64,000 nt of DNA from Rhodoferax fermentans (GTDB lineage: Bacteria > Pseudomonadota > Gammaproteobacteria > Burkholderiales > Burkholderiaceae_C): positions 2,480,001-2,544,000 of the forward strand of contig NZ_MTJN01000002.1 of assembly GCF_002017865.1 (NCBI RefSeq), read 5' to 3'. Position numbers and translations under genes: made by a program. Positions 50,845 through 55,413 of this stretch are shown here, piece by piece. A model generated the notes under the pieces. It was not told the origin of the DNA, did no database searches, and was given only the letters and a program-made list of their open reading frames with translations. The first letter of the stretch is position 1. Each line of letters begins with the position of its first letter.

Positions 50845-50979
50845 GGTGCTGCGCCGACAGGCGTCCTGAAAAAGTTGGGATGGGCGTGTGTTGCCGAGCG
50901 GGTGCTGCACCGGCTCAGGCTCACAACAAGGGAGGTCTGAGTTTAACTTTGTGCCTTGGCAGACTGGTGTGCCGGTCGG

Positions 50980-51028
50980 TTGACGTGGATCAAAGGCTCC
51001 CCCTCGGTCGGCAGCTAGAGTTGCTGCC
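50980..51028 (+). promoter_or_regulatory. FNR/Anr-type box and class II promoter of the fez-like operon
   Basis: TTGACGTGGATCAA at 50980-50993 fits the FNR consensus TTGAT-N4-ATCAA with one change. Its centre (50986.5) is 41.5 bases before 51028. A -10-like TAGAGT lies at 51016-51021, exactly where a class II FNR-activated promoter needs it. The start codon at 51115 follows after a leader of about 87 bases. This suggests expression of the operon under oxygen limitation. Confidence 0.65.
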
Positions 51029-51114
51029 AGAACCTTGAATGACACATTCAAGCCACCAGCCAGCCAGCCGCAGCTTCTTTGCGGCAAGCCAGCCAAGGAT
51101 GATTTCGATGATCC

Positions 51115-51501
51115 ATGACGGCCCAACAACCCACTTCTCTTCGCAGCGCAACGCCCGGGACTGATCCCTGGTCGGTCGTGTCTCTGTTTGCGCCTTACCT
51201 GCGCCTGGCGCACCAGATCCCCGGGCGGGTGCGCCTCAAGTTGGATGCGGCGGCGCTGGACGTGCCGCTGCTGCGCGGCCTGGGTGCCCAGGCTTTGCAA
51301 CAGGCGCTGGCGTCGGTGCGCGGGGTGCAGGATTTTTCGTTCAACCTGCTGGCACGTTCCTGTGTCATCACCTATGACAACGCCACCATTCCGGATGCGG
51401 CCTGGCCCGACTTGCTGGCGCAACGGCCATCGGTCTCAGCCCAGACGCTGTTGGCGATCCTGCAAGAAAGTTATGAGGAGTTGCGTTGTGGCCAACACTG
51501 A
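51115..51501 (+). CDS. HMA-like domain protein, first gene of a fez (ferrosome)-like operon
   Basis: The 128-residue protein has a beta-alpha fold resembling a heavy-metal-associated domain, but the CxxC metal motif is absent. In its place is [11 protein letters not shown] (residues 33-43). The same arrangement (HRLADRVRFRF) opens the P1B-type ATPase encoded by the last gene of the operon. In Fez proteins, as I recall, such basic HMA-like domains occur in the accessory protein and in FezB. No signal peptide or clear membrane helix is seen. It overlaps the ferritin-like gene by 14 bases. Exact biochemical role is unknown; assembly of an iron compartment is inferred from context. Confidence 0.72.
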
Positions 51502-52204
51502 CGAAAGCATTCTGCGCAGCCAGCGACTCCAGCCAGCAGCGCCCTGGCCGCTGCTGCACCAGGCCTTGCGCATGGCGCTGTATGACGAGTACGCCGCACG
51601 TGCGTATTACGCGGGTGTGGTTCAGGCCTTTGGCCAACAAGCCCCGTTTGCCAACATTCTGAAGTCTGAGGCCCAGCACATTGCGACGCTGGTGCGACTG
51701 TGCCAGCGTTACGGTGTGCCTCGCCCGCTGGACCCTTTTCCGGCAGAGACCACCATCTCTGCGTCCTGGCGAGTCAATTTGGAGCGTGGTGTCAGCGGTG
51801 AACTGGCCAATATCCGCTTGTATGACTACCTGTTGACCTGGGTGGCCGAGCCAGATGTGCGCCAGGTGTTTCTGCGTGTGCAGGCCGCTTCGCGCGACAA
51901 ACACCTGCCTGCTTTTCAGCGGGCCCTTGAAAAAGCCGTGGCGCTGGAGAACTGGCATGCCCAACAAGGCGTGGCCCCGAGCCAGGCTTATGTGCGCCAT
52001 GGCCCGCTGTCGGACGCGCTGGAGCGTGGTCTGGCTTTGCTGGCCAGCCAACACGGCGCTTTTGGCCTGATCGGCACCCTGGTCCGCACCACGCACCCGG
52101 CCATGCTGGCAGGTTTGGTGGCGGGTGGCGCGGCGGTGCATCTGCTGCGCCAGAGCCGAGCCGCCCCGGCCGCCCCATCCCATTCACCGACTCAGGAGGA
52201 CTGA
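51488..52204 (+). CDS. Ferritin-like (DUF2202-type) protein of the fez-like operon
   Basis: The 238-residue protein has a four-helix ferritin-like domain. DEYAARAYYAGVV and ILKSEAQHIATLV give the first E...ExxH metal half, and LERGVSGELANIRLYDYLL with SRDKHLPAFQRAL gives the second. An iron-binding di-metal site is therefore likely. The last ~45 residues contain a small hydrophobic segment (MLAGLVAGGAAVHLL) that may tether it to a membrane, unusual for this family. The open frame has no ATG in the right place. GTG 51488 is preceded by GAGGAG seven bases upstream and overlaps the previous gene. A distant in-frame ATG at 51473 is possible. Confidence 0.78.
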   Translation: MANTDESILRSQRLQPAAPWPLLHQALRMALYDEYAARAYYAGVVQAFGQQAPFANILKSEAQHIATLVRLCQRYGVPRPLDPFPAETTISASWRVNLERGVSGELANIRLYDYLLTWVAEPDVRQVFLRVQAASRDKHLPAFQRALEKAVALENWHAQQGVAPSQAYVRHGPLSDALERGLALLASQHGAFGLIGTLVRTTHPAMLAGLVAGGAAVHLLRQSRAAPAAPSHSPTQED

Positions 52205-52205
52205 T

Positions 52206-52454
52206 ATGTTGCCCTTGCTTCCCTTTGTTGCCGGCATAGTGACCGGCGCTGCTGTGACCAAACTCTGGCGCAGCAAGACCGCCAAGCACACGCCGGACCA
52301 GGCGCAGGACAGCTTGCACCAAAGCACGCTGCCGAACCAGCCAGGTCTCGCGTCCCCCTTAGCGCCAGTGTCCGAGCTTGAGCGCCAACCCGCGCGCACC
52401 GCCGTGCCCAGAAAACGCCGTGCACCCAAAACCACAGACGAGGTGCGTGGATGA
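52206..52454 (+). CDS. Small membrane-anchored protein of the fez-like operon
   Basis: The 82-residue product starts MLPLLPFVAGIVTGAAVTKLW, one short glycine-containing membrane helix. A charged, Pro/Ala/Arg-rich tail ending RKRRAPKTTDEVRG follows. The start follows AGGAGG at 52194-52199, the strongest ribosome binding site of the operon. The stop overlaps the next start by four bases (ATGA, 52451-52454). I do not recognise a named family. The basic tail could contact lipid or phosphate-rich material. Confidence 0.72.
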   Translation: MLPLLPFVAGIVTGAAVTKLWRSKTAKHTPDQAQDSLHQSTLPNQPGLASPLAPVSELERQPARTAVPRKRRAPKTTDEVRG

Positions 52455-52762
52455 GGGCGCTGTCCTTGCCCCGTGCCGCCCAGCCGACCGCCGAGGCGTT
52501 TGTGAAAGGCCTGGTGACCACCGGCGTGCTGGCGAGCATTCAGAAGCGGCCAGGTCGACCGGTGCTGGACAAACTGGTCGTGCGCCGAGCATTGCAAGGT
52601 GGCGCCGCCTTGGCAGCGGGAACCGTTGCCGCACAGGCCTGGCAGCGCCAGGACCTTGGCCGGGCTTTGACCGCCATCGCCTTGGGGACCGCCAGCGTGA
52701 TGGTGTTGGAACAGTGGATGAAAGAAACCAAGGAGAAGCAAGATGGGCAAGAAAAAGCGTAA
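52451..52762 (+). CDS. Small hydrophobic protein of the fez-like operon
   Basis: The 103-residue protein has a basic N-terminus and two hydrophobic, glycine/alanine-rich helices (ALQGGAALAAGTVAAQAW and ALTAIALGTASVMVL). These look like a membrane hairpin with small-residue packing motifs. The C-terminus is highly charged (MKETKEKQDGQEKA). It overlaps the preceding gene by four bases and the following one by 20, so translation is coupled. No family is recognised with confidence. A structural role in a membrane compartment is inferred from the operon. Confidence 0.7.
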   Translation: MRALSLPRAAQPTAEAFVKGLVTTGVLASIQKRPGRPVLDKLVVRRALQGGAALAAGTVAAQAWQRQDLGRALTAIALGTASVMVLEQWMKETKEKQDGQEKA

Positions 52763-53141
52763 ACAGCAGGCTGGCTGGGGCGAGCCCGGCTATGGGGCCA
52801 TGCAAGGCATGGACCCGGCCGGTATGGGCATGGGCGGCGGTGCGATGGGGGCCAACGCGGGCGGTGCTTATGGCTCTGCGCAAGCCGGGCCTGGTGTGGG
52901 CAACGGCTTGTTGCACAACTTGCAAGGGCTGGTCGGCAACCGGCAAACCGAGCAGTTCTTGATCGGGGCGCTGCTCGGTGCGGCGGCGGTGTATGTGCTC
53001 GGTGACGAGGCCATGCGTGCCAAACTGATGAAAACCGCCATGAAACTTTATACCGGTGTGGCGGGTGGTTTCGAGGAAGTCAAAGAGCAAATGGCGGACA
53101 TCAAGGCCGAGGTGGCCGCGGAGCAGCGCAGCAAGGGATGA
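52743..53141 (+). CDS. Glycine/methionine-rich small membrane protein of the fez-like operon
   Basis: The 132-residue protein begins with a basic MGKKKRKQQAG, then a low-complexity Gly/Met/Ala region with repeated GMG and GPG turns (~15-60). A membrane helix FLIGALLGAAAVYVLG follows at about 79-94, and then a charged helix (GGFEEVKEQMADIKAEVAAE) resembling YtxH-like coiled coils. The Gly/Met-rich part could bind metal or form a flexible coat; that is a guess. ATG 52743 follows GGAG. Its stop overlaps the ATPase start by four bases (ATGA). Confidence 0.72.
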   Translation: MGKKKRKQQAGWGEPGYGAMQGMDPAGMGMGGGAMGANAGGAYGSAQAGPGVGNGLLHNLQGLVGNRQTEQFLIGALLGAAAVYVLGDEAMRAKLMKTAMKLYTGVAGGFEEVKEQMADIKAEVAAEQRSKG

Positions 53142-55270
53142 ACCCGTCAGCCGCCTCCCCCTTTGTGGCCCTGAGGCCGGTCCATCGGCTGGCGGATCGG
53201 GTGCGTTTTCGTTTTGACCTGGCGCAGGGAACGTTGTTGGAACCACCGGGCATCACCCGTGCTGTGGAAAACCTGCCAGGTGTGCGCACGGTGCGGCTGG
53301 CGTGGCGAGCGCGTTCTTTGACGATCACGTTTGCCCCCGACGAGACCGATGTAGAGCGGCTCACAGCCGCCTTGCGCGACCTGCACCTGCCGCCCCATCT
53401 GCCGCAGACCCCGGCGCACCCGGTGCATGGCAAGGCGTGGATGCCGGTGGCCGCCAGTGCCGCCTTGTTGCTGAGCACCAAGCAGCTGTCACCACCGTTG
53501 CAACGTGCGACCACACTGACCGCCGCCTTGCCGCTGTATGGCGAGGCGCTGGGTGATGTGTTCAAGGAGGGCATCAACTCGCATGTGCTGGAGGCCTTGG
53601 CGGTGGCGATCTCCACTGCCAGCCAGGACTACGTGGCCGCCAACACCACGGTCTTCATGCTGGCCTTGGGCGAGTACCTGGAGAACTCGATTGCCCGGCG
53701 CTCCAACGACCTGCTCAAGAACTTGCTGCGTCCGGACACCGGCTGGGTCTGGGTCGAGCAGGACGGGGTGGAGCGTCAGATCGAGGCCTCCGAGGTGACG
53801 GTGGGTGCCACGGTGATTGTGGGGGCTGGTGCGGCTATTCCCGTGGATGGCACCGTGCTGGGCGGTGAGGCCATGGTCAATGAGGCTTCGATGACCGGTG
53901 AGGCGGTACCTGTGTCACGCCGCCGGGGTGATGTGGTGTTGTCAGGCACCGTGGTTGAGGAAGGGCGGTTGCGCATTTATGCCGAACATGTCGGGCGCAA
54001 GACGGCGGCCGCACGCATTGCCGACTATGTCGAGCAGTCCTTGCAAGCCAAAAGCCAAACGCAACTCGGTGCGGCCCGGCTGGCCGACAAGCTGGTGCCG
54101 GGCGTGCTGGGCCTGGCCGGTGTGACCTGGTGGCTGACCGGTGACTGGCGCCGTGCCGCCGCCGTGCTGCAGGCCGACTATGCCTGTGCCCTCAAGCTGG
54201 CGACCCCGGTGGCCTTCAAGTCGGCGATGTTCCGTGCAGGCCAAAGCGGCATTTTGATCAAGGGTGCTGACGTGCTGGAGCGGCTGGCCGAGGTGGACAC
54301 CTTTGTGTTTGACAAGACCGGCACCCTCACCACCGGCCATCTGGCGGTGACCGATTCGATCGCTTTTGACCCGCAGTACAGCGCCGAGGACCTGATTGAC
54401 TTGGCCGCCTCGGTGGAGGAGCATTACTTCCACCCGCTGGCGCTGGCGGTGGTCCAGGCGGCGCGCCAGAACCAGGGCCGCCACTTTGACCACAAAGAAG
54501 TGGAATTCATTGCTGCCCACGGCGTGGCCACGGTGATTGAGGGTCAACGGGTAGTGGTGGGCTCGCGCCATTTTGTTGAGGACGACGAGGGTGTGCGCAT
54601 CAACACCCGCCAGCGCCAACGCATTGAGCGCTTGTTTGCCCAGGGCAAGACCCTGCTCTATATTGGTTTTGGTGGCCGCTTGCTTGGGGTGATTGCCCTC
54701 AAGGACCAGTTGCGCGAGGCCAGTGCGGCCACCGTGGCGCGCTTGCGCAGCCTGGGTGTCAAACGTATCGTCATGCTCACAGGCGACCACCCCGATCGCG
54801 CCGCCGAGATTGCGGCACAGATCGGCCTGGATGAGTTTCATGCCCAGTTGTTGCCTGAGGACAAGGCGGCACTGGTGGCGCAGATGAAGGCCGACGGTGC
54901 CAAACTGGCCTTTGTTGGCGACGGCATCAACGATGCACCGGCGCTGGCGGGCGCGCATGTGGGTTTTGCCATGGCGCAAGGCGCCGACATCGCCCGCCTG
55001 AGCTCGGACATCGCCTTGCTGGAGGACGACATCGCGCGGGTAGCCGACGCCAAGCAACTGGCCAACGCCACCCTGCGCCTGATCGGGCGCAATTTCAAGC
55101 TCACGGTGGGCCTCAATTCCGCCATCCTGGCCGCCGCGGCAGCGGGCAAGCTCACGCCGGTGGCGGCGTCGGTGGCGCACAACGGCAGCACCATTGGCAT
55201 CCTGCTCAACGCCCTGCGTGGGGGACAGGCTGCGCTGCCCAGACGGCGGGCACAGTTGTCCCCGCGCTGA
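53138..55270 (+). CDS. fezB: P1B-type metal-transporting ATPase, FezB-like (ferrosome)
   Basis: The 710-residue pump has an N-terminal HMA-like domain without CxxC (HRLADRVRFRF at 16-26), the TGEA actuator loop (253-256), phosphorylation motif DKTGT (392-396), an HP dipeptide (432-433) and GDGINDAPAL (from 594). The membrane metal site reads YAC (348-350, in DYACALKLATP) where copper and zinc pumps have CPC. That Cys-poor motif fits the P1B-6 group to which FezB of ferrosomes belongs, as I recall it. It probably loads iron into a membrane-bounded storage compartment together with the five proteins encoded upstream. A pump for another metal is the alternative. Confidence 0.85.
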   Translation: MNPSAASPFVALRPVHRLADRVRFRFDLAQGTLLEPPGITRAVENLPGVRTVRLAWRARSLTITFAPDETDVERLTAALRDLHLPPHLPQTPAHPVHGKAWMPVAASAALLLSTKQLSPPLQRATTLTAALPLYGEALGDVFKEGINSHVLEALAVAISTASQDYVAANTTVFMLALGEYLENSIARRSNDLLKNLLRPDTGWVWVEQDGVERQIEASEVTVGATVIVGAGAAIPVDGTVLGGEAMVNEASMTGEAVPVSRRRGDVVLSGTVVEEGRLRIYAEHVGRKTAAARIADYVEQSLQAKSQTQLGAARLADKLVPGVLGLAGVTWWLTGDWRRAAAVLQADYACALKLATPVAFKSAMFRAGQSGILIKGADVLERLAEVDTFVFDKTGTLTTGHLAVTDSIAFDPQYSAEDLIDLAASVEEHYFHPLALAVVQAARQNQGRHFDHKEVEFIAAHGVATVIEGQRVVVGSRHFVEDDEGVRINTRQRQRIERLFAQGKTLLYIGFGGRLLGVIALKDQLREASAATVARLRSLGVKRIVMLTGDHPDRAAEIAAQIGLDEFHAQLLPEDKAALVAQMKADGAKLAFVGDGINDAPALAGAHVGFAMAQGADIARLSSDIALLEDDIARVADAKQLANATLRLIGRNFKLTVGLNSAILAAAAAGKLTPVAASVAHNGSTIGILLNALRGGQAALPRRRAQLSPR

Positions 55271-55413
55271 TGCGCTTTCGGCCGGGCTCTGACCGGCGCT
55301 TCGGGCTGCCAACAACGGCCGCTGTGTTGGCTTTTTGCCTTGGACTGTCCGGCCGGGCAGGGTTGATCTGGCGACCTTGTCGCCACGGTTGCCAGCTCGG
55401 TCACAATTTGGCC

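Follow-up and report, generated by a model that had tools for sequence, protein, structure and literature searches.

The closest described relatives of the locus reported here are the fez operons, which encode components of iron-storage organelles termed ferrosomes. In Rhodopseudomonas palustris CGA009, six genes (RPA2333-2338) are reported to make ferrosomes, according to PMC12016538, and among the products of the Desulfovibrio-/Clostridia-type clusters (FezA, FezB, FezC) the third is, according to PMC10979944, a DUF4405-type cytochrome. One review that covers ferrosomes, ferritin-like proteins and gene clusters treats ferritins, in its passages on ferrosomes, as separate stores. Here, we examined a stretch of 64,000 nucleotides from Rhodoferax fermentans (hereafter the window), in which six genes on the plus strand between positions 51115 and 55270 had been proposed to form a fez operon. 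Judged by gene order, homology and the clade of its ATPase, this operon is probably of the ferrosome type and would represent a distinct subtype, in which a ferritin-like protein with a membrane tail replaces the proline-rich protein FP of the R. palustris and Shewanella operons. While we rate the link to ferrosomes as being of an already known kind, the ferritin-like subtype appears to be new. The subtype itself, its exclusivity towards FP, its tie to the operon and the loss of its ligands were not found in print, which is a weak negative given that key ferrosome papers lie outside the coverage of the search; likewise, a literature search on DUF2202 found no paper.

The ATPase clade and the conserved gene order

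The six genes are densely packed, with four of the five junctions overlapping (by 14, 4, 20 and 4 bases) and a single base separating g2 from g3. The first gene, g1 (51115..51501; 128 amino acids, aa), encodes a small HMA-like protein without CxxC, which scores 27 bits against HMA_2 (PF19991), below the cut-off of 30, and is the sole match when its own genome is searched for HMA_2. It is followed by g2 (51488..52204; 238 aa; family F2), in which a ferritin-like, DUF2202/rubrerythrin-related domain is combined with a C-terminal hydrophobic segment; its GTG start was chosen by hand, the longest open reading frame (ORF) opening at 51188. The start of g3 (52206..52454; 82 aa; family F3), an ATG within the ORF 52125-52454, was likewise chosen by hand, and its product has an N-terminal hydrophobic segment and a polar tail. 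The products of g4 (52451..52762; 103 aa; family F4), a small membrane protein, and g5 (52743..53141; 132 aa; family F5), with a Gly/Met-rich N-terminus, one hydrophobic segment and a charged C-terminus, are both homologous to proteins encoded in the operons of R. palustris and Shewanella. Hydrophobic segments are found in all of g2, g3, g4 and g5 (at least one each), with one or two per protein in g3 to g5. The last gene, g6 (53138..55270; 710 aa), encodes a FezB-type P1B ATPase with a degenerate HMA N-terminus. ORF and profile checks thus bear out the coordinates and the description given in the original prediction, including the overlapping or nearly touching arrangement and the YAC in place of CPC in the ATPase.

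The P1B ATPase g6 scores 489.2 bits against TIGR01525, and both TIGR01525 and TIGR01512, which are heavy-metal and cadmium family models, exceed their cut-offs. Of the solved structures, those of copper pumps resemble g6 most in sequence. The fourth transmembrane segment (TM4) reads DYACALKLATP where CPC is usual; compared with DYACALK in the window, the motif is DYSCAVK in R. palustris and DYSCALK in Shewanella, none of them containing CPC, and all seven g6 paralogues fetched from the same genome carry CPC. Among 104 collected ATPases, D[YF][SA]C, a pattern derived from our own alignment, was present in 84 and [CSAT]PC in 13. A careful tree of 43 chosen rows split 35 FezB-type ATPases from eight CPC pumps at 100/100. 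Within the FezB type, a Desulfovibrio/Clostridia clade (100/99) stands as sister to a proteobacterial/Campylobacterota clade (100/99), one part of which (99/97) holds R. palustris XCP and Shewanella sp. TC10 and the other (100/98) joins the window to Thauera, Campylobacterota and further members. The same grouping was recovered in a quicker tree of 86 rows; its 15-row outgroup was not one clade, as L101 and the long row L078_2047 fell outside, and the rows of both trees had been thinned beforehand. An identity of g6 as a copper or zinc pump is rejected on the TM4 motif and the trees, and the grouping with copper, zinc or cobalt pumps that the original prediction had named as speaking against it appears in neither tree. 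According to PMC4932525, the class P1B-6 was named without biochemistry.

Relatives seldom carry the ATPase: homologues reach E<=1e-150 in 3 of 60 genomes, whereas 9 of 398 from the phylum have one at E<=1e-95 (the window's own included in both counts), and one of these nine (G386) lacks the FezB-type motif. When named genomes were scanned with an alignment of TM4 and its surroundings, 565 loci were confirmed out of 589 stretches; the best 80 of these include R. palustris XCP, Rhodomicrobium, Magnetospirillum fulvum, Shewanella sp. TC10, Ferrimonas and Photobacterium, together with Thauera, Pseudothauera, Arcobacter, Sulfurospirillum, Campylobacter, Helicobacter, Desulfovibrio and Clostridia. 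Gene content was then compared by profile searches on all ORFs of 93 loci, 80 with and 13 without a motif-bearing ATPase ORF. In the quicker tree, two of these 80 (L033 and L094) are not placed within the FezB clade. The window's operon is represented in the table by L019, the ATPase of which is 96% identical.

The gene order of the window, HMA-F2-F3-F4-F5-FezB, is found with the same six genes in operons of Thauera, Pseudothauera, Arcobacter, Sulfurospirillum, Campylobacter and Helicobacter (Thauera to Helicobacter: L073, L060, L077, L051, L058, L065, L078, L059, L062, L057). R. palustris XCP (L049) shares with the window one ATPase clade and the order of HMA, F4 and F5, but its operon reads HMA-FP-F4-F5-FezB, is preceded by FeoA and FeoB and contains no ferritin-like gene. 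Shewanella (L047) shows HMA-FP-F4-F5-FezB as well, and the same holds for Ferrimonas and Photobacterium (L038, L039), where the position between HMA and F4 is taken by a long Pro-rich FP; unlike the window, 8 of 10 loci of that clade have an upstream CXXC-family gene. Thus, the likeness to the Rhodopseudomonas and Shewanella layout that had been predicted stands for the order of HMA, F4, F5 and FezB, but not for FP, in place of which F2 and F3 are found. In contrast to the window, the Desulfovibrio-/Clostridia-type clusters, which share the FezB-type ATPase, have neither F4 nor F2, and their F5-like matches are weak or missing. We take the six-gene layout to be beyond chance, because the identical gene order recurs in other phyla.

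Since the first family models were partly seeded from the tested loci and one search was iterated, the searches were rerun with models built from F2-type loci only. At the expected places, these models find HMA, F4 and F5 in R. palustris (3.6e-13, 1.6e-5 and 3e-17, respectively) and in Shewanella (1.6e-16, 2.1e-8 and 8e-16). Searches with single proteins gave matches to R. palustris and Shewanella for g1 (0.019 and 1.5e-5) and for g5 (4.9e-7 and 6.4e-6). As in g1, CxxC is missing from 37 of 38 short HMA relatives. The small proteins did not match an unrelated family, the second outcome that the earlier work had considered adverse; instead, HMA, g4 and g5 match their counterparts in the R. palustris and Shewanella operons.

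Several relatives carry additional genes. Unlike the window, the Campylobacterota loci of the six-gene set have a FezC-like gene after FezB; a short protein of this kind follows FezB in 9 of 10 Campylobacterota loci of the table, and that of Arcobacter (L051:8383-8652) shows a weak DUF4405 match under the cut-off (E 0.019). A second HMA protein lies upstream of F2-less operons in Magnetospirillum fulvum (L072:4405-4866), L074 and L075, and the end of the L072 protein resembles the FezC-like family by eye, which would be compatible with an HMA-FezC fusion. In gammaproteobacterial operons, an additional upstream gene (L047:2975-3460, L038:3571-3960, L026:5610-6128) encodes a small basic protein with PPCKxCPA...CKC at its end, possibly a metal-binding extra.

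The ferritin-like protein F2 and the proline-rich protein FP

When each ORF was assigned to its best-scoring family, F2 was present on the operon strand in 16 and FP in 19 of the 80 loci with a motif-bearing ATPase, while no locus contained both. A tail-less F2 relative with a Gly/His-rich end was seen on the opposite strand upstream of an F2-less operon in L036 (3944-4528), a metagenome-assembled genome (MAG) of Methylocystaceae. On the careful tree, 12 of 15 rows of the window's clade have F2, and the branch with the tailed form comprises betaproteobacteria, two gammaproteobacterial MAGs and Campylobacterota. This distribution could be accounted for by one gain together with one loss (in the Azospirillum/Magnetospirillum/MS502-43 group), the counts by themselves not separating gain from loss.

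In the window's order, 11 of 399 genomes encode an F2-like protein, which is tailed in seven and tail-less in four. Each of the seven tailed copies is accompanied by a FezB-type ATPase no more than 2.5 kb away on its contig; the genomes with tail-less copies yielded no FezB match at E<=1e-150 (0/4). Five of the seven tailed loci were read further and show the order HMA-F2-(F3)-F4-F5, with L189 giving no F3 match and the ATPase of G750 being cut by the contig end; the remaining two are the window and G044 (L020 of the gene-content table). Eight further genomes of the order (family f20) have FezB-type ATPases at lower score (612-644 bits) and no F2. In these small-genome loci (L178-L183, L185, L186), the ATPases show DYSCALR or similar motifs in the sequences printed, have HMA neighbours and look nearer to the Desulfovibrio clusters by eye.

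The match of g2 itself to the DUF2202 profile is weak (22.2 bits at a cut-off of 22), and at E<=0.1 DUF2202 is matched by 12 and Rubrerythrin by 7 of 15 family members. In the PDB, the g2 family profile finds the DUF2202/rubrerythrin-type protein MJ0754 (3q4n) at E 4e-8, 9viw, an entry named bacterioferritin, at 9e-5 and, weakly, 5n5e (0.044), which we take to be an encapsulin-related ferritin-like protein. Homologous to MJ0754 by profile, g2 differs from proteins of this type in its place in a fez-type operon and in its C-terminal tail, a hydrophobic segment at residues 204-220 with GxxxG spacing. The ferritin-like protein with a possible membrane tail that had been noted at the outset is real and common to one branch of operons.

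In a comparison of the tail region of F2 with FP, 54 columns were aligned with a probability of 67. The same hydrophobic stretch aligns to F3 (probability 83, 20 columns) and F5 (probability 64, 23 columns) as well, and FP itself resembles F5 (probability 95). As F3 and F5 match this stretch too, homology of the F2 tail to FP is suggestive only, and the alignment gives a mere hint that F2 and FP might share a membrane module.

Upstream region and genomic site

An FNR-like palindrome, TTGACGTGGATCAA, is located on the plus strand at 50980..50993, 121 bases 5' of the first start codon; its first base is also that of the region delimited in the original prediction. The FNR-like sequence TTGAYNNNNRTCAA occurs once in the window, at this position, with 0.16 occurrences expected. 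Boxes scoring 9 or 10 of 10 are also present upstream in L019, L060 and L191, and in L025, which belongs to another subtype, while the upstream region of L048 scores 7. As a general feature of the subtype, the box holds only partly, being present at 4 of the 10 F2 loci that were scored from the window's order and the Zoogloeaceae, a count that includes the window and its near copy L019 and leaves out L190. A promoter scan gave one promoter-like site (0.5 expected) and a terminator scan six (4.1 expected), neither of them usable.

Relatives in which the purT-like and ABC-transporter genes adjoin define an inserted segment at 50875..55394, to which no strand is assigned. The relative L141 aligns to window positions 50874 and 55395 with 35 bases between them. 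To survey the site, the surroundings of the ABC-transporter gene were read in the genus at 29 loci, the best of 48 when the window's own is left aside; both flanking genes are named by eye. In 13 of them, the purT-like gene lies 35-204 bases from the ABC-transporter gene with no operon between, four contain about 0.9-1.4 kb of other sequence, one (G004) carries the operon, and in 11 the 1.5 kb read contains no purT-like gene. No fez-family protein was found in the four loci with other sequence (L142, L125, L126, L134); judged by eye, L142 seems to carry a VapBC-type toxin-antitoxin pair. As shown by relatives with an empty or differently filled site, the operon is a mobile cassette inserted at a variable position, and the interval between the purT-like and ABC-transporter genes is possibly a local insertion hot spot. 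Among 35 same-genus relatives the ATPase is present in G004 only, from which we infer that a recent gain of the operon is more likely than many losses. Base composition does not tell whether the operon is a compositional island: its GC content is 0.649, while the purT-like gene has 0.642, the ABC genes 0.623 and the window as a whole 0.604.

Proposed mechanism, competing explanations and implications

By analogy with its clade and with reports on ferrosomes, the FezB-type ATPase most likely pumps ferrous iron from the cytosol into a membrane compartment, which the small Gly/Ala-rich membrane proteins F3-F5 and the HMA protein might help to form or to populate. The membrane-tailed g2, with its small partner g3, would fill the slot of the proline-rich protein; through its five carboxylate/histidine ligands, it probably binds the iron that the pump handles and may oxidise it as well. 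The FNR-like box suggests that FNR probably activates the operon when oxygen is low.

A number of observations weigh against a ferrosome operon with an iron-binding F2. The comparison relies on loci of R. palustris XCP and Shewanella sp. TC10 and not on those of CGA009 or S. putrefaciens, and thus not on strains with demonstrated ferrosomes, XCP presumably carrying the same operon as R. palustris CGA009. FP is not present in the window's operon, where g2 and g3 occupy the place between HMA and F4, and g4 alone matches nothing from R. palustris or Shewanella at E<=1, so that the family model was needed. No FezC-type gene lies within 1.5 kb of the window's ATPase or in 15 kb around its relative L019; FezC is not constant in fez clusters, as there is no FezC-like match at Shewanella L047 either, and DUF4405 matches exist elsewhere in the window's genome. 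FNR-like boxes of at least 9/10 occur in only 5 of 30 upstream regions, the other 25 having none that good, and the window contains no canonical Fur box with up to 3 mismatches allowed. Neighbouring iron genes count in favour of a ferrosome operon, albeit without a control comparison: a motif search located FeoB in 8 of the 93 regions (L024, L037, L040, L042, L049, L060, L073, L077; among them R. palustris and the three Zoogloeaceae loci of the six-gene set, Thauera included), and a three-sequence profile located Fur-family genes in L049 (weak), L051, L053, L058, L059, L062, L065 and L078. The Fur-family genes lie near most Campylobacterota operons of the six-gene set, unlike in the window, and Pfam confirms them beside those of Arcobacter L051 and Campylobacter L059, the two queried; strong FeoB_N matches occur elsewhere in the window's genome.

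The remaining adverse point concerns the metal site of g2. The presumed iron ligands E34, E61, H64, E105 and H139, called by alignment and general knowledge, are all present in the window's copy. However, in a count that omits the partial sequences L063 and L067, they are incomplete in 9 of 20 tailed homologues (L020, L162, L164, L165, L166, L169, L057, L059, L062), and iron binding by g2 is therefore not essential to the subtype. This recurrent loss implies that the chemistry of g2 is dispensable or that its fold is structural. Accordingly, g2 may be a structural pseudo-ferritin within a true ferrosome operon, whose fold provides a scaffold or shapes the membrane and whose metal site is a relic. 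In favour of this possibility, which we consider real but doubtful, the nine copies come from several branches and keep similarity, tail and gene position, and g2 sits in the slot of FP, with which its tail can be aligned; conversely, the window and ten other tailed copies as well as all five tail-less relatives retain the complete set. A mixed proposal, to which we give tentative and slightly greater credence, is that the ferrosomes of a whole bacterial branch, comprising some betaproteobacteria and Campylobacterota, have a tailed ferritin-like protein built in where other ferrosomes have FP; it would act as ferroxidase or nucleator of the iron mineral in some members and as a pseudo-ferritin scaffold in others, in which the site was lost.

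It is unlikely, in our estimation, that the operon encodes an efflux complex for Fe(II) or Mn(II) in the cytoplasmic membrane, in which the small proteins organise the pump and the ferritin-like protein buffers iron at the cytosolic face, without any organelle. Mycobacterial effluxosomes likewise combine a metal pump with small membrane proteins, and sequence alone cannot separate a cytoplasmic from an organelle membrane. Nevertheless, the ATPase and three of its neighbours are related to the R. palustris operon type, the six genes of which are reported to make ferrosomes in strain CGA009 (PMC12016538). An ordinary resistance operon for copper, zinc, cadmium or cobalt is very improbable, since the family-model scores and the copper pumps among the closest structures of g6 are set against the absence of CPC from g6 and of CxxC from g1 and nearly all of its relatives, the 100/100 branch that separates g6 from the seven CPC pumps of its own genome, and the iron genes adjoining the operons of some relatives.

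Taken together, a ferrosome-type operon of a distinct subtype remains the most probable explanation of the locus, in line with the original prediction. A ferritin-like domain in the slot of FP gives that slot a testable function, and natural copies with and without the presumed ligands, as in Thauera and Campylobacter concisus, respectively, provide ready-made comparisons. The subtype further predicts ferrosomes in Thauera, Arcobacter, Sulfurospirillum and Campylobacter. If this holds true, two principles of iron storage would be merged in one organelle.

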